Below, in pieces: positions 21,445-44,776 of a stretch of 64,000 nucleotides of DNA. The stretch's first letter is position 1. Each line of letters begins with the position of its first letter. Made by a program: the position numbers and the translations under genes. The DNA is from Phycisphaerales bacterium (GTDB lineage: Bacteria; Planctomycetota; Phycisphaerae; Phycisphaerales; UBA1924), in contig JAJDDC010000040.1 in assembly GCA_029260515.1 (NCBI GenBank), positions 186,001 through 250,000 on the forward strand. The letters run 5' to 3'. The notes under the pieces were generated by a model. That model saw only the letters and a program-made list of their open reading frames with translations, made no database searches and was not told where the DNA came from.

Positions 21445-23406
21445 ATGGCCGACCTGAAGAAGATGAAGGGTGTGAGCGAGCGTGATCAGAAGATGATCGC
21501 GGACGCCGAGACGCTGCTCGGACCCGAGCCCGGCTCGATGGGCGTGGTCAAGAACTACTTCTGGGGGAACCTGCGGGATGACCTTCTGTTCCCGTACCCG
21601 GACATCGCCAAATCCAGCCCGCAGGAGACGGCCGAGTGTGACCAGTTGCTGGCGCGGCTCGAGGAGTACCTCAAGAACGAGCACCCCGCGGTCAAGATCG
21701 ACCAAGAGCAGTACATGCCCGAGTGGGTCATCCAGCGGCTGTTCGACCTTGGTGTTCTGGGCATGACCATCTCCAAGGAGAGCGGCGGGCTGAGCATGGG
21801 CATCACGAGCTACAACCGCGTGCTCGACCTGATCGGGTCGTACTGCGGTTCGACGGCGGTCGTCGTGTCCGCCCACCAGTCGATCGGGTGCAAGGCCGTG
21901 ATGCTGTTCGGAACCGATGAGCAGAAGAAGCGGTGGCTGCCCAAGCTGGCCCGCGAGTGGCTCAGCGCGTTCTGCCTGAGCGAGCCCAATGTCGGGTGCG
22001 ACGCGGGCGGGCAGGAGACGCGGTGCGAGCTGTCCGCTGACGGGTCGCACTACATCCTCAACGGCGAGAAGAAGTGGGCGACGAGCGGCGCGATCTCGGG
22101 GCTGTTCACCGTCATGTGCAAGCAGAAGATGGGCGACGGCAAGGAGAAGGTGACGGCGTTGGTGTGCACGCCGGACATGGACGGGATCGACATCTTCCAG
22201 AAGAACCGGTCCAAGTGCGGGATCCGTGGGACATGGCAGGCGCGGATCCGGTTCAACAACGTGCGGGTGCCGCGTGAGAACCTGCTGCACAAGGAGGGGC
22301 GGGGGCTGAACGTCGCGCTGAGCTGCCTGAACTTCGGGCGGTGCACGCTCAGCGCGGGCATGCTGGGCGGGGCGCGTCGGGCCAAGGAAGAGTCGATCAA
22401 GTGGGCGCAGACCCGCTACCAGTTCGGGCGCCCTCTGGCGGACTTCGACCTGGTCAAGCAGAAGGTCGCGCACATGACGGCGCTGTGCTACGCGATGGAC
22501 TCGATGCTGTACATGACGACCGGCATGCTGGATCGCGGCGACGAGGACATCATGCTCGAGACCGCGGCGTGTAAGGTGTTCTGCTCGGAGATGGGGTGGC
22601 GGTGCGTCAACGACGCGGTCCAGATCATGGGCGGCGAGGGGTACATGACCGAGAACGAGGTCGAGCGGATCTTCCGCGACTCTCGGATCAACATCATCGT
22701 CGAGGGCGCCAACGAGGTGATGCAATCGTTCATCTTCGCCTACGGCGGGAAGCAGCTGGCGGAGAAGATGCTGGGGGTCAAGGAGTCGCTCGAGGCGGGC
22801 AAGCTCTCGCCTGCGGTCGTACGGGCGGGCATGCCCCTGTTCAGTGAGGTCATCCTGGGGATCCGCAGGCGGGCGCCCGAACCGCCGCAGGTCTCCGATG
22901 AGCTGCGACCGCACGCCGAGCGGATGTGCCGCCTGATCTCAGAGCTGACGTACCAGTTCAAGAAGGCGAGCAAGATTCACGATGTGAAGATCATCGAGCG
23001 TCAGGTGGTGCAGGCGCGGATCGCGGACGCGGCGTTGTACCTGCACGCGTGGGCGTGCACGCTCAGTCGCCTGGACCACGACCTACGCCAGGGCGCCGAG
23101 GGCACGGAGCACGAGGCGAACAAGGCGGGCGCGCTGCACTTCTTCGAGATCGCGGAGATCGAGATCAACAACCGGTTCCGTGGGCTTTACGAGAACGCGG
23201 ACGGGTCGATGCGCGTGGCGGCCGAGGCGGCGCTGCGGCACTCGGACACGCTGCCCAACGCGGAGTTCATCATCCCCGAGAAGTCACCCAATGCCCAGGG
23301 CACGGGGCGCGAGCCGACGCAGGAGGGGATCAAGCAGTTCCCGGGCACGCCCAACCGGTACGTCGCGGGCGGCACGGGCCGCGAGGCGATGGAGCCCGCG
23401 GGCTAA
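21445..23406 (+). CDS. Acyl-CoA dehydrogenase, long VLCAD-like form
   Basis: A 653-residue flavoprotein that inserts the alpha-beta double bond in acyl-CoAs. The core covers residues ~60-450: the FAD/substrate motif FCLSEPNVGCDAGG, the IRGTWQARIRFNNVRVP strand, and the catalytic base Glu420 in IVEGANEVMQ. The extra ~200 C-terminal residues are helical, as in very-long-chain acyl-CoA dehydrogenases, where they mediate membrane or dimer contacts. Electrons would go to ETF, not encoded here. It lies just after a hydratase and in the neighbourhood of HMG-CoA lyase, so branched or long-chain acyl substrates are both possible. Confidence 0.92.
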   Translation: MADLKKMKGVSERDQKMIADAETLLGPEPGSMGVVKNYFWGNLRDDLLFPYPDIAKSSPQETAECDQLLARLEEYLKNEHPAVKIDQEQYMPEWVIQRLFDLGVLGMTISKESGGLSMGITSYNRVLDLIGSYCGSTAVVVSAHQSIGCKAVMLFGTDEQKKRWLPKLAREWLSAFCLSEPNVGCDAGGQETRCELSADGSHYILNGEKKWATSGAISGLFTVMCKQKMGDGKEKVTALVCTPDMDGIDIFQKNRSKCGIRGTWQARIRFNNVRVPRENLLHKEGRGLNVALSCLNFGRCTLSAGMLGGARRAKEESIKWAQTRYQFGRPLADFDLVKQKVAHMTALCYAMDSMLYMTTGMLDRGDEDIMLETAACKVFCSEMGWRCVNDAVQIMGGEGYMTENEVERIFRDSRINIIVEGANEVMQSFIFAYGGKQLAEKMLGVKESLEAGKLSPAVVRAGMPLFSEVILGIRRRAPEPPQVSDELRPHAERMCRLISELTYQFKKASKIHDVKIIERQVVQARIADAALYLHAWACTLSRLDHDLRQGAEGTEHEANKAGALHFFEIAEIEINNRFRGLYENADGSMRVAAEAALRHSDTLPNAEFIIPEKSPNAQGTGREPTQEGIKQFPGTPNRYVAGGTGREAMEPAG

Positions 23407-23541
23407 GGATCGCGGCCGTCTGATCGGCCTCCTGCCCGCCTCCGGGCGGGCCGATATGTTCGGATGGCGCCCGAGGCGCCGGTCACAGCTACCCTTCCCG
23501 CCCCGATATACGGGGCGTGGATGATGCACACGGAGGGCCGC

Positions 23542-24669
23542 ATGCCCCGACGCAAGTCGTACGAAGCGAAGATCGACTTCCTGCAGATTCTTGACGAGAA
23601 CGGGAAGCTGGATGCGCGTCTGGCGAAGGACACGCTCACCGACGAGCAGGTGGTCGCGTCGTACGAGCAGATGTGGATCTGCCGCGAGTACGACGAGACC
23701 GCGTTCAAGCTCCAGCGCTCGGGACGCATGGGCACCTACCCCCAGAACAAGGGGCAGGAAGCCGCAGCGATCGGCTCGGCGCTTGCGATGAAGAAGGGCG
23801 CCGACTGGCTGGTCCCCTGCTACCGCGAGAACGCCGCCCTGTTCATGCACGGCCTGCCGATGCACTACATCCTGCTGCACTGGATGGGCGACGAGCGTGG
23901 CAACCAGGTGCCCGAGGGCGTGAACCAGACGCCCATCTCGATCCCCATCGGGACGCACATGCTGCACGCGACGGGCATCGCGTGGGCGATGAAGCTGCGG
24001 GGCGACGAGGACAGCGCGGTCATCACCTACTTCGGCGACGGGGCGACGAGCGAGGGTGACTTCCACGGCGCCATGAACTTTGCGTCCACGCTCCAAGTCC
24101 CGTGCGTGTTCATGTGTCAGAACAATCAGTGGGCGATCAGCGTGCCCCGCTCCGAGCAGATGCGGTCGCCGACGGTGGCGCAGAAGGCGATCGCGTACGA
24201 GATGCCGACGATCCAGGTAGACGGGAACGACATCTTCGCGGTGTACAAGGCGGTGAAGGACGCGCGGGACCGTGCGGTCGATGGCGGCGGGCCGAGCTTC
24301 ATCGAGGCGGTCACGTACCGCCTGGGCGACCACACGACCGCGGACGACGCGCGTCGGTACCGCGATCAGGCCGAGCTGGACTCGTGGCTGGAGAAGGACC
24401 CGATCATCCGGATCCGCAAGTACCTCGAGTCCAAGGACCTGTGGAGCGAGAAGGACCAGAAGAAGCTGGGCGAGCGTGCGAAGAAGATCGTCGCGGAGGT
24501 CGTGAAGACGGCCGAGGGGATCGAGGACCCGACGACCGACGACATCTTCAACTACACGTTCGCGGGGCTGTGCGACGAGCTGGAGACGCAGCGCGAGACG
24601 TTGCGGACCAACTCGTTGGGGCAGTTCCCGGAGCAGGCGGGGCTGCGCGGGCGTGCGGAGCGTGTCTGA
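23542..24669 (+). CDS. pdhA: 2-Oxoacid dehydrogenase E1 component, alpha subunit
   Basis: A 375-residue thiamine-diphosphate enzyme subunit that decarboxylates pyruvate or a branched 2-oxoacid and passes the acyl group to the lipoyl domain of E2. The ThDP motif runs from GDGATSEGDFHGAMNFAS to QNNQWAIS (GDG...NN). The phosphorylation-loop region is GDHTTADDARRY. The ATG at 23542 is preceded by GGAGG; other in-frame ATGs upstream (23521, 23524) lack it. It is the first gene of an operon with a small FlbD-like gene, E1 beta and E2. Pyruvate versus branched-chain preference cannot be settled by sequence alone; nearby leucine-degradation genes make the latter worth considering. Confidence 0.9.
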   Translation: MPRRKSYEAKIDFLQILDENGKLDARLAKDTLTDEQVVASYEQMWICREYDETAFKLQRSGRMGTYPQNKGQEAAAIGSALAMKKGADWLVPCYRENAALFMHGLPMHYILLHWMGDERGNQVPEGVNQTPISIPIGTHMLHATGIAWAMKLRGDEDSAVITYFGDGATSEGDFHGAMNFASTLQVPCVFMCQNNQWAISVPRSEQMRSPTVAQKAIAYEMPTIQVDGNDIFAVYKAVKDARDRAVDGGGPSFIEAVTYRLGDHTTADDARRYRDQAELDSWLEKDPIIRIRKYLESKDLWSEKDQKKLGERAKKIVAEVVKTAEGIEDPTTDDIFNYTFAGLCDELETQRETLRTNSLGQFPEQAGLRGRAERV

Positions 24670-24938
24670 TGCTGATCAAGGTGATCGACACCAAGGGCAG
24701 GCAGCGGTGGATCAACGCCGCGTATGTCAAGGCGCTCCGGGCGAGCGGGAGTATGACGGAGATCGAGGTCGCGGGCTGGACGAGCAAGGTGCGTGTTGCC
24801 CAGGAGCTGGACGAAGTGGCGGCGGCGATCAACATGGCGATGCCCGAGTTCGGGGCGCCGATCGGGGCGGAGGCCGCCCAGAACCAGGGCCAGGCAGCCT
24901 CGCAGGCGGCGGTAATCGGGATGGTGCTGGGCGGGTGA
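24669..24938 (+). CDS. Small FlbD-like protein inside the dehydrogenase operon
   Basis: An 89-residue protein whose ATG overlaps the last base of the E1 alpha stop codon, so it is translationally coupled. The first ~60 residues match the layout of FlbD, the short protein of flagellar operons: MLIKVIDTKGRQRWINA, then T-E-I-E-V strand, V-A-Q-E-L-D-E-V-A helix. The remaining tail is Ala/Gln/Gly-rich. FlbD has no established enzymatic role. Its placement between E1 alpha and E1 beta is odd. A structural or regulatory role in the complex is possible but only inferred. Confidence 0.7.
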   Translation: MLIKVIDTKGRQRWINAAYVKALRASGSMTEIEVAGWTSKVRVAQELDEVAAAINMAMPEFGAPIGAEAAQNQGQAASQAAVIGMVLGG

Positions 24939-24992
24939 GTTCGTAGGATCTACAGCGGGCCGGATGACCACGGCCCGAGCAGGGAAAGAAGC

Positions 24993-25967
24993 ATGGCGCA
25001 GCTGACACTCGTGCAGGCGATCAACCAGGCACTCGACCAGGAGATGGAGCGCGACGAGCGCGTCGTCGTCCTGGGCGAGGACGTCGGCGTCAACGGCGGT
25101 GTGTTCCGCGTGACCGAGGGGCTGGCCGAGAAGCACGGCAAGCACCGGTGCCAGAACACGCCGCTCGACGAGTCGGGCATCATGGGCACGGCGATCGGGC
25201 TGGCGATGGCGGACATGCGCCCGATCCCGGAGATCCAGTTCGAGGGCTTCCTCGGCCCTGCGTATGACCAGCTCGTGAACCATGCGGCGCGGTTCCGGAC
25301 GCGGACGCGGGGGGCGATCACGATCCCGCTGACGGTGCGTGTGCCCGTCGGGGGCGGGATCCACGCGCCCGAGCTGCACTCGGACTCGCCCGAGGCGATC
25401 TACGCGCACACGCCGGGGCTGAAGGTGGTGATGCCGTCTACGCCTCACGACGCGAAGGGGCTGCTGCTTGCCAGCATCCGCGACCCGGACCCGGTTGTGT
25501 TCTTCGAGCCCAAGCGTGTGTACAGGTCGTTCCGCGAGGAGGTGCCCGAGGATGACTACGAGATCGAGATCGGCAAGGCGAAGGTCGTGAGCGAGGGCGA
25601 GGACCTGACGGTCGTGAGCTGGGGGGCGAGCGTGTTCCAGTGCCTGGAGGCGATGGACAACCTGCCCGAGGACGTGAGCGTCGAGCTGATCGACCTGCGG
25701 ACGATCTACCCGATCGACATGGACACGATCATCGCGAGCGTCGAGAAGACGGGGCGGTGCGTGATCGTGCACGAGGCGCCCAAGACGTGCGGCATGGGCG
25801 CCGAGCTGACGGCGCGGATCCAGGAGCACTGCTTCCTGAGTCTCGAAGCGCCCGTCCAGCGTGTGGCGGGGTTCGACACGGTCATGCCGTACTACAAGCT
25901 GGAGCTGGATTACCTGCCGGACGCGGCACGGATCGGCGAGGGTGTGAAGGCTTGTCTGGCGTACTGA
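24993..25967 (+). CDS. pdhB: 2-Oxoacid dehydrogenase E1 component, beta subunit
   Basis: A 324-residue partner of the E1 alpha subunit; the two form the heterotetramer that binds thiamine diphosphate. The N-terminal VVLGEDVGVNGGVFRVTEGL and the strand PEIQFEGFLGPAYDQLVNHA with its conserved Glu for ThDP activation are typical. The C-terminal transketolase-like domain shows ELIDLRTIYPID. A GGGAAAGAA ribosome site precedes the ATG. It is 54 bases after the FlbD-like gene. Confidence 0.93.
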   Translation: MAQLTLVQAINQALDQEMERDERVVVLGEDVGVNGGVFRVTEGLAEKHGKHRCQNTPLDESGIMGTAIGLAMADMRPIPEIQFEGFLGPAYDQLVNHAARFRTRTRGAITIPLTVRVPVGGGIHAPELHSDSPEAIYAHTPGLKVVMPSTPHDAKGLLLASIRDPDPVVFFEPKRVYRSFREEVPEDDYEIEIGKAKVVSEGEDLTVVSWGASVFQCLEAMDNLPEDVSVELIDLRTIYPIDMDTIIASVEKTGRCVIVHEAPKTCGMGAELTARIQEHCFLSLEAPVQRVAGFDTVMPYYKLELDYLPDAARIGEGVKACLAY

Positions 25968-25968
25968 G

Positions 25969-26000
25969 CAGGCATTGGGGATTCGGCAACAGGCATTAGG
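25969..26000 (+). repeat. Short direct repeat between pdhB and pdhC
   Basis: CAGGCATTGGG (25969-25979) and CAGGCATTAGG (25990-26000) differ at one base and are separated by ATTCGGCAA-type spacer. The 42-base gap between the E1 beta and E2 genes is mostly this. It resembles runs of GGCATT/GGGATT units often seen between planctomycete genes. No role is apparent. Confidence 0.55.
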
Positions 26001-26009
26001 AAGAACCAG

Positions 26010-27374
26010 ATGGCGCACGCGAAGAGCACGGATCCCAATGTTTTCATCCTCCCGGACCTGGGCGAGGGCGTCCACGAGGCGGAGTTGATCGCCTGGAAGG
26101 TCAAGGAGGGTGACACGGTCGAGGAGCACGAGACCATCGCCGAGATGGAGACGGACAAGGCGTTGGTCGAGGTGCCCAGCCCGAGGGCGGGGACGATCAA
26201 GACGCTGCACGGCAAGCCGGGCGAGGTCCTCAACGTCGGCAACCCGCTCGTGACGTACGTCGGGGGCTCTGGGGGTGACAACGGGTCGAGCAAGGGCAAG
26301 GCCAAGGCCGCGCCCGAGCCCGAGACCGCCGAGATCGCGGTCAGCGAGGAGCGTGAGGACGCGGGGACCGTCGTCGGCGCGATGGGGGGCGAGCTGAGCG
26401 GCGTGACCGCCCAGGAGGGCAGGGCCCTCGCGACGCCGGCGGTGCGGCGCCTTGCGCGGGACATGGGCTTGGACATCAACAGCGTGCCCGGCTCGGGCAT
26501 GGGCGGGCGGGTGCTGGCGAAGGATGTCAAGGCGTACAGCGGGGGTGGCGGCGCGCCGGCGGCGCCCGCGCGATCCGCGCCGATGCCGACGTTCACGCAG
26601 CCGAGCGCCCCCACCCCTTCGCGGGCGCCCGCCCCCAACCAGCAGACGCAGATCGCGCCGGGCGCGGACACAGCCCGGGTCCCGTTCCGGGGTGTGCGCC
26701 GGACGATCGCGAATCGTCTGCGCGAGAGCGTGAACACCGCCGTCCACTTCACGGTGATGGACGAGGCGGACGTGACGGCGCTCGACGCCCTGCGCAAGCA
26801 GCTGGCGGCGGCGTCGGGCGAGAAGGTGAGTTTCCTGCCGTTCGTGTGCTCGGCGGTGAGCCGGGTGCTCGCGGGCAAGTTCGGGACGCTCAACGCGACC
26901 GTCGAGGGCGAGGGCACCGACGAGATGACGATCGTCCAGCACCGCGCCGTGCACATGGGCATCGCGACCGACACAGAGAGCGGGCTGATGGTGCCCGTGC
27001 TGCGTGACTGCGACAAGCTGGGCGTGCTCGAGATCGGGCGCCAGGTCGGGGCGATCGCGGGGGCGGCACGCTCGCGCTCGATCCCGCGCGAACAACTCAT
27101 GGGCTCGACGTTCACGATCAGCAACGTGGGGAGCTACGCCGGGCGGTTCGCGACGCCGGTGATCAACTCGCCCGAGGTCGGGATCCTGGCGGTCGGGCGC
27201 AACCGCGAGGGGATGGTCGTCAAGGACGGGTGGTTCCGGACGGGCAAGCTGATGCCCCTGAGCCTGGCGTGCGACCACCGTGTCGTGGACGGTGCGACAG
27301 CGGCGCTGGCGCTGGCGGAGATCGTGCGCCTGCTCCAGGACCCGAACCAGCTGTTGACGCCGGCCCGGGGGTAG
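26010..27374 (+). CDS. pdhC: 2-Oxoacid dehydrogenase E2, dihydrolipoamide acyltransferase
   Basis: A 454-residue E2 that carries the acyl group on lipoate and transfers it to CoA. One lipoyl domain (residues ~10-85) has the lipoylated lysine in EMETDKALVEVP. An Ala/Pro/Glu linker leads to the E3/E1-binding domain (ATPAVRRLARDMGLDINSVP, then G-x-G-G-R). A second flexible Ala/Pro/Ser linker precedes the catalytic domain, which ends with the active-site His and Asp in CDHRVVDGATAAL. E3 is not in the window. The E1 alpha/beta plus E2 order is standard. Confidence 0.94.
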   Translation: MAHAKSTDPNVFILPDLGEGVHEAELIAWKVKEGDTVEEHETIAEMETDKALVEVPSPRAGTIKTLHGKPGEVLNVGNPLVTYVGGSGGDNGSSKGKAKAAPEPETAEIAVSEEREDAGTVVGAMGGELSGVTAQEGRALATPAVRRLARDMGLDINSVPGSGMGGRVLAKDVKAYSGGGGAPAAPARSAPMPTFTQPSAPTPSRAPAPNQQTQIAPGADTARVPFRGVRRTIANRLRESVNTAVHFTVMDEADVTALDALRKQLAAASGEKVSFLPFVCSAVSRVLAGKFGTLNATVEGEGTDEMTIVQHRAVHMGIATDTESGLMVPVLRDCDKLGVLEIGRQVGAIAGAARSRSIPREQLMGSTFTISNVGSYAGRFATPVINSPEVGILAVGRNREGMVVKDGWFRTGKLMPLSLACDHRVVDGATAALALAEIVRLLQDPNQLLTPARG

Positions 27375-27544
27375 AGGCCCCGGGCGCGACGCCCACGTGC
27401 GTGCGGATCGCATCACGGGGTGTCTCGGCGGCATGCGGGGACGAATTCAAGAGAGTTCGTCAGCGGGCGGGGAGAATCCGCGGTACCCATTCGAGACCCG
27501 CCGCGGCACGCCGCGGACGGGCATCGACACGAAGGGAGACCGCC

Positions 27545-29323
27545 ATGAAGACCCGATTCGCGACCATCGCCGTGCTCGCTCTTGCGCTGTGCGCAGGGGG
27601 CGTCAATGCCGCGGGCGAGTCCTCGGAAACCGAGCAGAAGCCGCCGCAGCGGTCGTCGGCGTCGAAGGCTCGTGTGCAGGCGGCCCCCGCCGTACGCCGT
27701 GCGCCGACACGGGCGGCGCCCGCGGCCAGGCGGGCCCCCGCGCCTCGCCCGAGCGTGAGCCGTTCTCGCCCGTCGGCGCCGACGCGGGCCTCGCGTCCGA
27801 CGAGCAGCCGCCCGAGCACGGTCCGCACGCCGCAGCGCCGACCGAGCCCCGCCGCCTCCCGCCCGTCGGCCCGCCCGACGACCGGCTCACGGCCCCGCCC
27901 ATCGACGGTCTCTCGGCGTGACGTGCGGGCGCCCGCCCCCAGCCGAACAACGGCGCGCCCGCCGACAACGCGCCGCCCGACCCTGCCGCGCGTGACCACG
28001 ACGCGGCCGATCCGTCCCAACTCCGCGAGGCCGACCGATGTGACGCCCCGCACTCGCCCGAGCGTCGCGCCACAGCGGAAGCCCACGAGCATCTCGCGGC
28101 CCGCGCCCAGCGTGCGCCGCCCCGAGTCCCGGACAGCGCCGGGCGTGACGCGCCCGGGGGCGCGTCCGAGCACGAGGACGGTTCGCCCGACTCCCCCTTC
28201 GCGCCCGACGACCGGGCAGCGCCCCGCGACGGGGCAGCGGCCGGGATCGACGGATCGGCGCCCGGGCGTCTCGCGTCCGACACCATCGAACCAGGGCGGC
28301 GCCATCCGCCGGCCTTCGGCGCCGAGGCCGCGCACACCGGTGGTGCGCCCGCAGCGACCCGGGATCGGCGAGGGGCGCCCAGGCGGCGTCGTCCGGCCGA
28401 GCAAGAACAGCAACATCCCGTCGCGCCCGAAGATCAAGCAGACCACGCCCCGCCCGGGGCCGGGCATCGGTTCCGACGGCGGGCGCCCGTCATCGGGCAA
28501 CCGCGGCGGGTACAGCGGCCAGGGATTCGACCGGCCCTCGACGCGGCGCGGTGATCATGGCGGCGACCACGGCGGGCGTCACTGGAACAACTATTACGGC
28601 TCGCCGCACCACCCGCACTGGACGCACGCCGACCGGCACGGCATCCACTACGGCGGACACCCCTACCACCACCACTACGACCACGGGTATCACCACCGCC
28701 ACTCTGGGTTCAGCTTCGGACTGTGGATCTCGTTCCGCGGCGTGCCCTGGTACTACTGCCCGACATACCGCTCGGACACGTACGTGTACGTCAGCCACGT
28801 GTACGAGTCGCATTACTACTTCGGCGCGGGGACCGGCGCCCGTGCCGACCGCGCGGTCGCGACGATCGACGCGGGCTGGCAGGAGTTGGAGCGTGGGCAG
28901 TACGACCGGGCGCGGCGTTCGTTCGCCCAGGCGTCCGCCGACGCACCGGATTGGGGCCTGCCCAAGATCGGGTACGCGCTGGCGCTGGCGGGCGCGGGTC
29001 ACGACGCGGCGGCCGCGCCCGTGATGCGCCTGGCGATGGCCGAGGACCCGTACGCGGCGCTCGAGGCGCCGTGGTCCGATGAGCTGGGATACCTGCTCGA
29101 CGCTCTGGACGTGCGGTACACTGACCTGGCGCTCGACGGCGTCGAGCCGCACGAGACTTGGTTCATGGCCGCGAGTTTGCGGCTGATGCTGGGCGACGCC
29201 GACGGCGCGAGCGAGGCGGTGTTCAACGCGGAGGCCGCGGGCGCCGGCGCAGAGCCGATCTCGGGACTGCTCGAGGTGCTCACTGCGACGGAGGCGGCGC
29301 CATCCGACGGCTTGGCCGAGTGA
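27545..29323 (+). CDS. Exported protein with long Arg/Pro/Ser/Thr-rich region and His-rich segment
   Basis: A 592-residue secreted protein. Residues 1-22 are a signal peptide (MKTRFATIAVLALALCAGGV...). Residues ~35-335 are almost only Arg, Pro, Ser, Thr, Ala and Gly, very basic and certainly disordered, with repeated units such as R-P-A-T-G-Q-R-P-G. A segment at ~345-395 is rich in His, Tyr and Gly (HHPHWTHADRHGIHYGGHPY). Next is an aromatic, possibly membrane-touching strand (FSFGLWISFRGVPWYYC). The last ~190 residues form TPR-like helices. The low-complexity part could bind anionic polymer or metal at the cell surface; this is inference. No homologue is recognised. Confidence 0.75.
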   Translation: MKTRFATIAVLALALCAGGVNAAGESSETEQKPPQRSSASKARVQAAPAVRRAPTRAAPAARRAPAPRPSVSRSRPSAPTRASRPTSSRPSTVRTPQRRPSPAASRPSARPTTGSRPRPSTVSRRDVRAPAPSRTTARPPTTRRPTLPRVTTTRPIRPNSARPTDVTPRTRPSVAPQRKPTSISRPAPSVRRPESRTAPGVTRPGARPSTRTVRPTPPSRPTTGQRPATGQRPGSTDRRPGVSRPTPSNQGGAIRRPSAPRPRTPVVRPQRPGIGEGRPGGVVRPSKNSNIPSRPKIKQTTPRPGPGIGSDGGRPSSGNRGGYSGQGFDRPSTRRGDHGGDHGGRHWNNYYGSPHHPHWTHADRHGIHYGGHPYHHHYDHGYHHRHSGFSFGLWISFRGVPWYYCPTYRSDTYVYVSHVYESHYYFGAGTGARADRAVATIDAGWQELERGQYDRARRSFAQASADAPDWGLPKIGYALALAGAGHDAAAAPVMRLAMAEDPYAALEAPWSDELGYLLDALDVRYTDLALDGVEPHETWFMAASLRLMLGDADGASEAVFNAEAAGAGAEPISGLLEVLTATEAAPSDGLAE

Positions 29324-29335
29324 TCGTCCGGGCGG

Positions 29336-29923
29336 TCAGCGCCGGCGGCGCGGGGCGAGCAGCCCACCCGCGAGCAGCGGGAGCGTCGCGGGCGCGGGGA
29401 TCGCGAAGCGGAGGTTGTCCACCCAGAGTTCTTGGCCCGAGATGCCGAAGCTCTCGATGTCGCCGGTCACGGTGAGGCGTCCGAACGAGGGGCCTCCGCC
29501 GAGGTCGGCGACGTCGATCGTTGCGCCGCCGACGCTCATGCCATCGACGTCGTAGAACGTTGCGGTGGAGATCATGTCGCCGTTGACGAATATGTTGTTG
29601 TCGCCGCCGAACTGCCCGAAGAAGATGGTGACCGAGGGGACGCTTGAGAAGGGGACGGCGAGTTCGAGGCGGACGTTGTTGAGCTCGAGGTCGAACCCGT
29701 CGCCGCCGGCCATGAGGTTGTCGTCCACGCGGGCGCGGTTCGAGAACATAGAGCCGGGGGTGAAGTCGAGGATGTCGAACGTGATCCCGTCGGACGTGAA
29801 CGAGTCACCGACCATGTACTCGTCGCCGACGGTGAGGTCGTTGAAACTCGCGAGGTCAGCGGCGGCGAGGCCGGCGGTGGCAACGAGAGCGATCGCGCCC
29901 GGCAGGAGTCGTGCGGCTGGCAT
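29336..29923 (-). CDS. PEP-CTERM-type exported protein
   Basis: A 195-residue protein with an N-terminal signal peptide (cleavage near AGLAAA-DLA), a beta-rich middle of alternating Asp/Gly/Phe strands, and a C-terminal sorting tail: IPAPATLPLLAGGLLAPRRRR reads as Pro-Ala-Pro, a hydrophobic helix, and a basic end. In planctomycetes this PEP-CTERM variant is processed by an exosortase and the protein is attached or released at the surface. It converges on the Arg/Pro-rich exported gene with a 12-base gap. The body fold resembles a carbohydrate-binding-like jelly roll but no family is certain. Confidence 0.82.
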   Translation of the reverse strand: MPAARLLPGAIALVATAGLAAADLASFNDLTVGDEYMVGDSFTSDGITFDILDFTPGSMFSNRARVDDNLMAGGDGFDLELNNVRLELAVPFSSVPSVTIFFGQFGGDNNIFVNGDMISTATFYDVDGMSVGGATIDVADLGGGPSFGRLTVTGDIESFGISGQELWVDNLRFAIPAPATLPLLAGGLLAPRRRR

Positions 29924-43285: not shown

Positions 43286-44776
43286 ATGCCCGCGCCGCCG
43301 CCCCCGCAGGAAGTCATCGAGCAGGCGAGGAAGCTGCTCTACGCAGGGCGTTTCTCGGAGGCCATATCGGTGTGCGAGCGGGCGCGTCGGGCCCACCCGG
43401 GGTCGGCAACGCTGATGCTCATCCACGGCGCCGCCCTGACGCGATTCGGGACACCCCGCAAGGCGATCCCCTTGATCCGCCGGGTCATCGAGCGGGATCC
43501 TTCTCGTCACCAGGCGCACATCGAGCTCGGCTCGGCGCACCAGGCGGACACGGATCTGGAGAAGGCGGGCGACGCGTTCGAGAAGGCGGTCGCCCTCGCG
43601 CCGGACAGCCCTGACGCGGCCGCGGCGCTCGGGTCCCTCCGTCGCTTGCAGGGAGACCACGAGGGCGCGATGGCCGCAGTCGAGGGGCTGGTCCGGGACG
43701 GGAAGGCCAACGGCCCGTGCATGCTGCTGTTCGCCGAGCAGGCTCGGCGCCTCGGGCGCGTGCGTGAGGGCATCGACGCCGTTCGTGCGTACCTGCGGCG
43801 TGACGAGGTGTGGCCCTTCTACATACGGCGCCTGACATGGGCGCTCGGCGACCTGCTCGACGCCGCTGGTGAGTACGACGAGGCCTTCGCGTGCTTCACG
43901 CGTGTCAGCGAGACCGACCGGGTGCGCTGGAACCCGGACGGGTACAGCGCCGCGGTGGATGCGGTGATCGCGGCGTGGACGCCTGACGTGATCGCCACGC
44001 TCCGTGAGTCGGGGGTTGATACTGATCTGCCTGTGTTCATCTTCGGCATGCCGCGGTCCGGCTCGACGCTGACCGAGCAGATCATCGCCAGCCACCCGAG
44101 GGCATGCGGCGGGGGCGAGCTGGCGTTGCCGCACAAGTTCGCGGCGCAGCTCCTCTCCGATGGCGGAAACGAGTTCGCGCTGATCACGGACCCCGGCGTC
44201 CTCAACCGCGCCCGCCTCTCGCGGTTCGGACGCTCGGTGGCCAAGCGTCTGAGTGGACTCGACAGGGCGGCACAACGCGTCACGGACAAAGGACTCAACG
44301 CCTGCTTTCACCTCGGCCTGATCGCGGCGGCGCTGCCCAACGCCAGGCTCGTGCACTGCGTGCGTCACCCGCTCGACACCTGCATCTCGTGCTTCTCACG
44401 CGATTTTCGCGACAAGCACGCCATGGCGTTCACGTGCGACATGACGTGGCTCGGGCGGTACTACAACGACTACAGGCGGATGATGGCCCACTGGGAGGGC
44501 GTGCTCGATGCCCCGATCCACCGCGTCGAATATGAGCGGATGGTCGCGGACCAGGTCGGCGAGTCGAAGAAGCTGATCGACTTCGTGGGCCTGGAGTGGG
44601 ACGACGCGTGCGAGCGATTCCACGAGCGTAAACGCGTTGTGCGGACGGCGAGCGAGTTCCAGGTGGACCAGCCGATCTACACGAGCTCGGTGCGTCGGTA
44701 CGAGAAGTACGCCGCCCACATCGGGCCGTTGCGGGCCGCGATCCGCCCGGAGTACCTGGACGAGGCGCACGCCTGA
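43286..44776 (+). CDS. TPR-sulfotransferase
   Basis: A 496-residue fusion. The N-terminal ~220 residues are TPR-like repeats (GRFSEAISVCERARRAHPGS, ADTDLEKAGDAFEKAVALAP). The C-terminal domain is a PAPS-dependent sulfotransferase: the 5'-phosphosulfate loop is FIFGMPRSGSTLTEQII and the 3'-phosphate loop is RHPLDTCISCFSRDF. Such fusions, common in planctomycetes and proteobacteria, are thought to sulfate peptides or polysaccharides but the acceptor is unknown. The start at ATG 43286 is favoured over 43238, which overlaps the previous gene. Cytoplasmic. Confidence 0.88.
   Translation: MPAPPPPQEVIEQARKLLYAGRFSEAISVCERARRAHPGSATLMLIHGAALTRFGTPRKAIPLIRRVIERDPSRHQAHIELGSAHQADTDLEKAGDAFEKAVALAPDSPDAAAALGSLRRLQGDHEGAMAAVEGLVRDGKANGPCMLLFAEQARRLGRVREGIDAVRAYLRRDEVWPFYIRRLTWALGDLLDAAGEYDEAFACFTRVSETDRVRWNPDGYSAAVDAVIAAWTPDVIATLRESGVDTDLPVFIFGMPRSGSTLTEQIIASHPRACGGGELALPHKFAAQLLSDGGNEFALITDPGVLNRARLSRFGRSVAKRLSGLDRAAQRVTDKGLNACFHLGLIAAALPNARLVHCVRHPLDTCISCFSRDFRDKHAMAFTCDMTWLGRYYNDYRRMMAHWEGVLDAPIHRVEYERMVADQVGESKKLIDFVGLEWDDACERFHERKRVVRTASEFQVDQPIYTSSVRRYEKYAAHIGPLRAAIRPEYLDEAHA

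Follow-up and report, generated by a model that had tools for sequence, protein, structure and literature searches.

What does a protein do that appears to be exported from a planctomycete cell and whose N-terminal half is nearly all arginine, proline, serine, threonine, alanine and glycine? An earlier note had described such a protein in the stretch of 64,000 nucleotides analyzed here (the window), with a signal peptide in front of the basic half, a His/Tyr-rich segment behind it and a folded, TPR-like C-terminus. We found each of these parts in the order described (Table 1), and we compared the protein with its orthologues, with known families and with similarly built proteins across the Planctomycetota.

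Table 1. Features of the gene and its upstream context in the window.
Feature	Position	Strand	Basis
Gene of 592 codons (592 aa), start ATG 27545, stop 29323	27545..29323	+	ORF reading; whole-length orthologues
AAGGGAGA, ribosome-binding-site-like (Shine-Dalgarno-like), upstream of the ATG	27532..27539	+	read from the sequence
Signal peptide, residues 1-22, likely cut after VNA	27545..27610	+	by eye and script heuristic; AlphaFold2 helix 3-17
Arg/Pro-rich basic disordered region, residues 25-331 (307 residues)	27617..28537	+	composition, Arg spacing, R-P order, pLDDT about 30-45
Gly/His-rich then His/Tyr-rich segment, residues 332-387	28538..28705	+	sequence composition
Conserved aromatic stretch GFSFGLWISFRG..WYYCPTYR..YVYVS.VY..HYYFGAGTG, residues 388-431	28706..28837	+	conserved in three orthologues; two weak AlphaFold2 strands
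TPR-type helical domain, residues 432-583, net acidic	28838..29293	+	AlphaFold2, Foldseek, VIA-align, family alignment
Context: pyruvate dehydrogenase-type E1 alpha, E1 beta and E2 genes (pdhA-pdhB-pdhC)	23464..27374	+	Pfam; synteny with two orthologue loci

Comparison of orthologous sequences supported translation of the N-terminal half and confirmed the three-part anatomy. The gene is present in a single copy in its own genome and has two orthologues, each with the full architecture and with 46% identity to the window protein from end to end: L052 (JAJDDI010000062.1, Phycisphaerales bacterium OFTM92; its coordinates coincide with those of G001/L003, the same place) and L053 (JAUHXM010000045.1, Phycisphaerae bacterium 3_bin.101). 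In the Arg/Pro-rich (RP) region, frame 0 was the sole frame open in all three, and alignments in this frame scored well above shuffles (z of 8.4, 8.5 and 4.7). An antisense frame of the region also scored (z of 5.7, 5.5 and 7.0), as would be expected from a mirror of the sense frame, and it has stops in the other two orthologues. We rejected a frame or annotation artefact because only frame 0 is open in the three orthologues and the C-terminus folds in that frame (AlphaFold2); the objection raised in the earlier note, that the N-terminal half might be untranslated, was thus not borne out. A longer reading from GTG 27230 (697 aa) was also rejected, since it runs into the E2 gene and would leave the signal peptide internal.

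The basic half is conserved in composition and order more than in exact sequence. The signal-peptide-like start (MKTRFATIAVLALALCAGGVNA-AG) was recognized by eye and with a simple script, and both relatives start similarly. In the RP stretch, counted here as 309 residues, six residue types account for 81% of the total (P 20.1%, R 19.7%, S 12.6%, T 11.0%, A 9.4% and G 8.1%) and the net charge is about +57. The corresponding stretches, as cut, were 309, 347 and 230 residues long in the three orthologues, with net charges of +57, +56 and +38 and low sequence identity; given lengths this different, the exact residues are less well kept than the make-up and order of the region. Next come 105 residues that in the window protein include 19 His along with 14 Tyr; the matching stretches have 18 His in L053 and 12 His with 25 Tyr in L052. 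Eight His between residues 338 and 423 are invariant across the three.

The C-terminal domain was predicted to be an ordinary TPR fold, and most of the rest of the protein was predicted to be disordered. In the AlphaFold2 model of the whole protein, pLDDT was below 50 for nearly all of residues 16-426, and the prediction was confident only for the TPR domain, with block pLDDT of 76-97 for the helices of residues 432-583. A model of the C-terminal 247 residues, made with six sequences, had nine helices, mostly at pLDDT 80-97, preceded by two weak strands and, further upstream, disorder. The best Foldseek matches in the PDB were TPR or TPR-like, with E-values that do not pass 0.001, and the chains listed by VIA-align were all TPR or TPR-like. 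About 70 residues superposed on TPR chains at 1.1-1.4 Å, whereas over the full length the rmsd was large, which is consistent with a bend or spacer ahead of the last hairpin. The helical hairpins stack antiparallel as in a TPR solenoid, but the domain differs from the TPR superfamily in having a helical spacer between the second and third hairpins and in scoring below the gathering score of the Pfam TPR models (best E 0.038, 14.6 bits versus 27).

No named family in Pfam, NCBIfam or PHROGs covers the window protein. Pfam and NCBIfam gave sub-threshold TPR-type matches only and PHROGs gave none, a sequence search of the PDB gave one weak match (PcrH, E 0.18), and relatives scanned against the family libraries matched TPR models only. 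We rejected links to HrpB1, HemY and PcrH-type proteins as weak TPR cross-matches; the NCBIfam equivalog for HrpB1/HrpK of type III secretion scored 13.8 bits against a cut-off of 123.85. PrsT of PEP-CTERM systems, YbgF/CpoB, MamA, PilF and NlpI are likewise bacterial TPR proteins, some of them exported. PilF, NlpI and MamA were among the fold matches, and the NCBIfam models for PrsT, YbgF and MamA touched relatives weakly, all far under cut-off (e.g., 37 bits versus 312 for PrsT). In the window protein itself, NCBIfam gave no match to PrsT (TIGR02917) at E up to 10 and none to YbgF/CpoB (TIGR02795), and the neighboring genes encode a dehydrogenase complex rather than tol-pal. We know of no Arg block with an aromatic block in PrsT, YbgF/CpoB, MamA, PilF or NlpI. 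Among the papers listed in searches of the literature, none described a layout of signal peptide, Arg block, aromatic block and TPR domain. Homology of the full protein to a characterized family was looked for in these libraries and not found, in agreement with the earlier note, which had known of no characterized equivalent.

The same layout recurs in other planctomycetes. Relatives of the window TPR domain were found in 20 of 60 related genomes, and most of them carry a signal peptide along with a variable stretch enriched in Tyr, His, Ser or Arg. We built a profile (A1) from 17 seeds, leaving out L017, L019 and L021 (different architecture); four of the seeds (the window protein, L003, L007 and L010) have both blocks. 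Searched against 246 planctomycete genomes, this profile found proteins in other classes with a signal peptide, an Arg/Ser/Pro/Gly-rich block, a His/Tyr/Trp-rich block and a TPR domain, and the layout was seen by eye in 12 of the 22 loci taken from the search (L030-L051). With a mixed profile (A6), matches at E ≤ 1e-7 came from 354 of 392 genomes; many of these matches may be generic TPRs.

We scored the layout by composition: a basic block was a stretch of 60 residues with at least 80% RPSTGANQK, at least 10% R/K and a net positive charge, and an aromatic block was a stretch of 40 residues with at least 30% HYWF. The window protein, L052 and L053 all have the order defined here, Arg block, then H/Y/W/F block, then C-terminal TPR. 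We took the best A6 hit per genome in rank order for 80 planctomycete genomes, excluding the window's own genome and skipping by hand five contig-end or short-frame cases (G236, G068, G327, G119 and G410). Both blocks preceded a C-terminal TPR domain in 62 of the 80, a number that is not an estimate of prevalence because the A6 seed included rows already known to have the layout. The basic block always came first, and 54 of the 62 proteins also passed the signal-peptide heuristic. Of 20 lower-ranked hits that we selected manually near the end of the listing (E of 3.5e-21 to 2.7e-19), 11 had both blocks. By hand count of family labels, the 62 proteins fall in 17 families and all 73 in about 21; two families (f30 and f38) contribute 35 of the 62, so the counts are not independent. 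As a control, we scored 207 stop-to-stop ORFs, each at least 250 aa long, taken from five related loci as well as the window. Four had both blocks; three of these are the window gene and its orthologues, and the fourth is an antisense ORF, so the pairing of blocks goes beyond chance. The architecture that the earlier note had proposed to search for in planctomycetes is thus not a one-off.

Some of these proteins have further repeats between the parts. In six (L089, L097, L114, L125, L136 and L139), alternating tracts such as DVDVDVDVDV, YKYKYKYKYK and NIDIDIDVDV precede the aromatic block; such tracts suit beta strands. Members of f30 (L087, L088, L090, L094, L096, L105 and others) have a repeated YDDGYxxGYxxGYxDGADDAS-type stretch between the aromatic block and the TPR domain.

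What the set has in common is evenly spaced Arg, instead of Lys, next to a block of Tyr, Trp, His and Phe. The basic blocks of the 62 proteins contained 3330 Arg and 301 Lys (Arg/(Arg+Lys) 0.917), and their TPR domains 703 Arg and 342 Lys (0.673). This bias was not built in, because the windows used to call the block scored Arg and Lys alike. The Arg ratio of the block did not follow GC content (rho 0.14, p 0.26), whereas that of the TPR domain did (rho 0.49, p 4.6e-5; n=62), and in the four loci under 58% GC the mean ratio was 0.82 in the block versus 0.44 in the TPR domain. In 57 of 61 proteins, Arg residues were spaced more evenly than in shuffled sequences; z fell below -2 in 38 proteins and never exceeded +2. 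The standard deviation of the gaps was 2.51 in the window protein (shuffles, 4.33±0.52), 1.71 in L053 (3.74±0.49) and 3.61 in L052 (4.78±0.62). The order of residues is also biased in the window protein, in which R-P occurs 35 times and P-R seven times (shuffle means of 12.4 and 12.5). Charge is split along the chain: the basic block had a net positive charge in all 62 proteins (in part a consequence of the way it was called), the stretch from the aromatic window to the TPR domain was net negative in 58 of 62, and the TPR domain in 61 of 62. The aromatic windows held 1245 H/Y/W/F residues, among them 520 Tyr, 368 Trp and 202 His.

The layout may have been assembled more than once, as judged from comparison of the TPR domains. 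In the group of the window TPR domain (A1, 26 members), the variable region was net positive in all 26 and the TPR domain net negative in 21; an aromatic window of at least 0.25 was present in 18, and the full Arg block was present in seven and missing in 19. A larger TPR group (A7) is closer to ordinary TPRs: hhalign E-values were 1.4e-16 between A1 and A7, 1.3e-8 between A1 and generic TPRs, and 3.7e-16 between A7 and the same generic TPRs. Generic TPRs interleave with both groups, and the comparison did not set A1 and A7 apart from other TPRs as one family of common origin. When the A7 model was run on the window's own genome, the window gene ranked below three matches to other TPR ORFs; by eye, two of these have a C-terminus that resembles a sulfotransferase.

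Based on these results, we tentatively favor, at somewhat less than even confidence, the interpretation that the window protein is a modular, self-associating envelope or matrix protein of planctomycetes. Arg over Lys, even spacing and a separate, adjoining aromatic block would be expected of a self-associating protein built on stickers, and it is on this ground that we propose a scaffold. The signal peptide would export the protein from the cytoplasm, from which we infer a location outside the cell. The long disordered block would provide evenly spaced Arg stickers and the neighboring Tyr/Trp/His/Phe block aromatic stickers, and the two would bind between molecules through cation-pi and planar contacts. 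The product would be a condensate-, gel- or mesh-like assembly that could also wet anionic surfaces, and the acidic TPR domain would remain folded and either dock a protein partner or limit charge repulsion. Extended to a phylum-wide class, in which the two kinds of sticker block assemble a condensate or glue outside the cytoplasm and TPR domains recruit partners, as a bacterial extracellular analogue of FUS- and Lge1-type scaffolds that contributes to envelope, adhesion or matrix, the proposal is rather doubtful.

There are precedents for parts of this design in Brosi_A1236 and Lge1, which are not homologues of the window protein. Brosi_A1236 is described as an abundant extracellular S-layer-type protein of anammox Planctomycetota whose disordered repeats bind each other, phase-separate into droplets and wet cells (PMC7482068). 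It is thus an exported protein of the same phylum with self-binding disordered repeats, but by its description it differs in having Ig-like beta domains with the disordered repeats at the C-terminus, and that description mentions no TPR domain and no Arg or aromatic blocks (PMC7482068). YTV-motif cell wall proteins of planctomycetes are likewise exported and lineage-specific, but are described as Cys-rich with YTV motifs, and the words TPR and tetratricopeptide are absent from the main text of that paper (PMC8567305). Substituting Lys for Arg in the disordered region of Lge1 increased the saturation concentration roughly tenfold, and replacing Tyr with Ala impaired condensation (PMC10406433). 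Condensate proteins of the Lge1/FUS type combine Arg with aromatic stickers, as does the window layout, but Lge1 is a nuclear yeast protein. Proteins of this type are eukaryotic and intracellular, and are not known to have a signal peptide.

The earlier note had suggested that such a basic protein could bind anionic polymers or metals, and the first of these is a close rival that can act together with self-association. The Arg-rich region would bind anionic polymers of the envelope or the extracellular space (peptidoglycan, lipopolysaccharide phosphates, sulfated or acidic polysaccharide, or extracellular DNA) and present the TPR domain at the surface, and the aromatic block would be minor. 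Arg binds phosphate and sulfate well, so the Arg bias does not single out aromatic contacts, and the charges of the three orthologues and the net-positive variable regions throughout the A1 group, 18 of them also aromatic-rich, fit this account. It leaves unexplained, however, why an aromatic block stands beside the Arg block in both samples, and as the whole explanation we consider it possible but on the doubtful side. Arg instead of Lys, evenly spaced and next to an aromatic block, makes self-association through Arg-aromatic contacts at least as likely. Counting against self-association, the Arg block is missing from most of the window's own TPR group, and even spacing of Arg could arise by repeat expansion.

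A further view, which we consider improbable, is that high GC content gave rise to the N-terminal half as a repeat-expanded spacer under weak constraint and that the TPR domain alone matters. The low identity and unequal lengths of the RP regions and the short variable regions of related TPR proteins from the same taxonomic order are consistent with a passive tether, but the Arg ratio of the block did not track GC content, Arg spacing is non-random, and the two-block order recurs across the family groups counted above. The metal-binding half of the earlier suggestion proved less general. A His/Tyr/Cys-containing segment that collects metal ions or haem outside the cytoplasm, with the rest as a tether, would account for the dense and partly invariant His in the window protein and L053, but Tyr outnumbers His in L052, His is a minor component of the aromatic windows across the set, and no metal-transport gene was seen in the conserved neighborhood. 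With His this minor, metal binding would be at most a local specialty, and we consider it quite unlikely.

The proposed self-associating scaffold matters for what it would say about planctomycetes, which have an unusual envelope, live attached or in aggregates, and have mostly unnamed exported proteins. The recurring order of Arg block, aromatic block and acidic TPR domain offers a testable handle on adhesive or matrix layers; if the proposal is true, it may be a case of a condensate-type design at work outside the cytoplasm, and if self-association fails, the layout is still a widespread planctomycete exported architecture that is nameless in the libraries searched.

The gene neighborhood is conserved among the orthologues. 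At all three loci the gene is downstream from the E1 alpha, E1 beta and E2 genes (with one extra ORF between in L053) and is followed by a gene of the metallo-beta-lactamase fold. We found no operon conserved across the phylum among the loci compared, and a search for plasmid-borne relatives found none. The only group shared with non-orthologous loci among those listed, family genes aside, was an acyl-CoA dehydrogenase (21445-23406 in the window), which is also near the gene in L052 and near the family gene in the distant loci L174 and L175 (f52 group); this is perhaps a coincidence. Convergent with the TPR-layout gene is a gene (29336-29923, minus strand) for a small, exported-looking protein with no Pfam or NCBIfam match, the end of which (PAPATLPLLAGGLLAPRRRR) resembles a PEP-CTERM-type sorting tail. 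Further along the window, at about 43316-43753 (plus strand), is a TPR ORF with a C-terminus that looks sulfotransferase-like by eye, and at least three more TPR ORFs of this kind (L187, L192 and L194) are present in the same genome.
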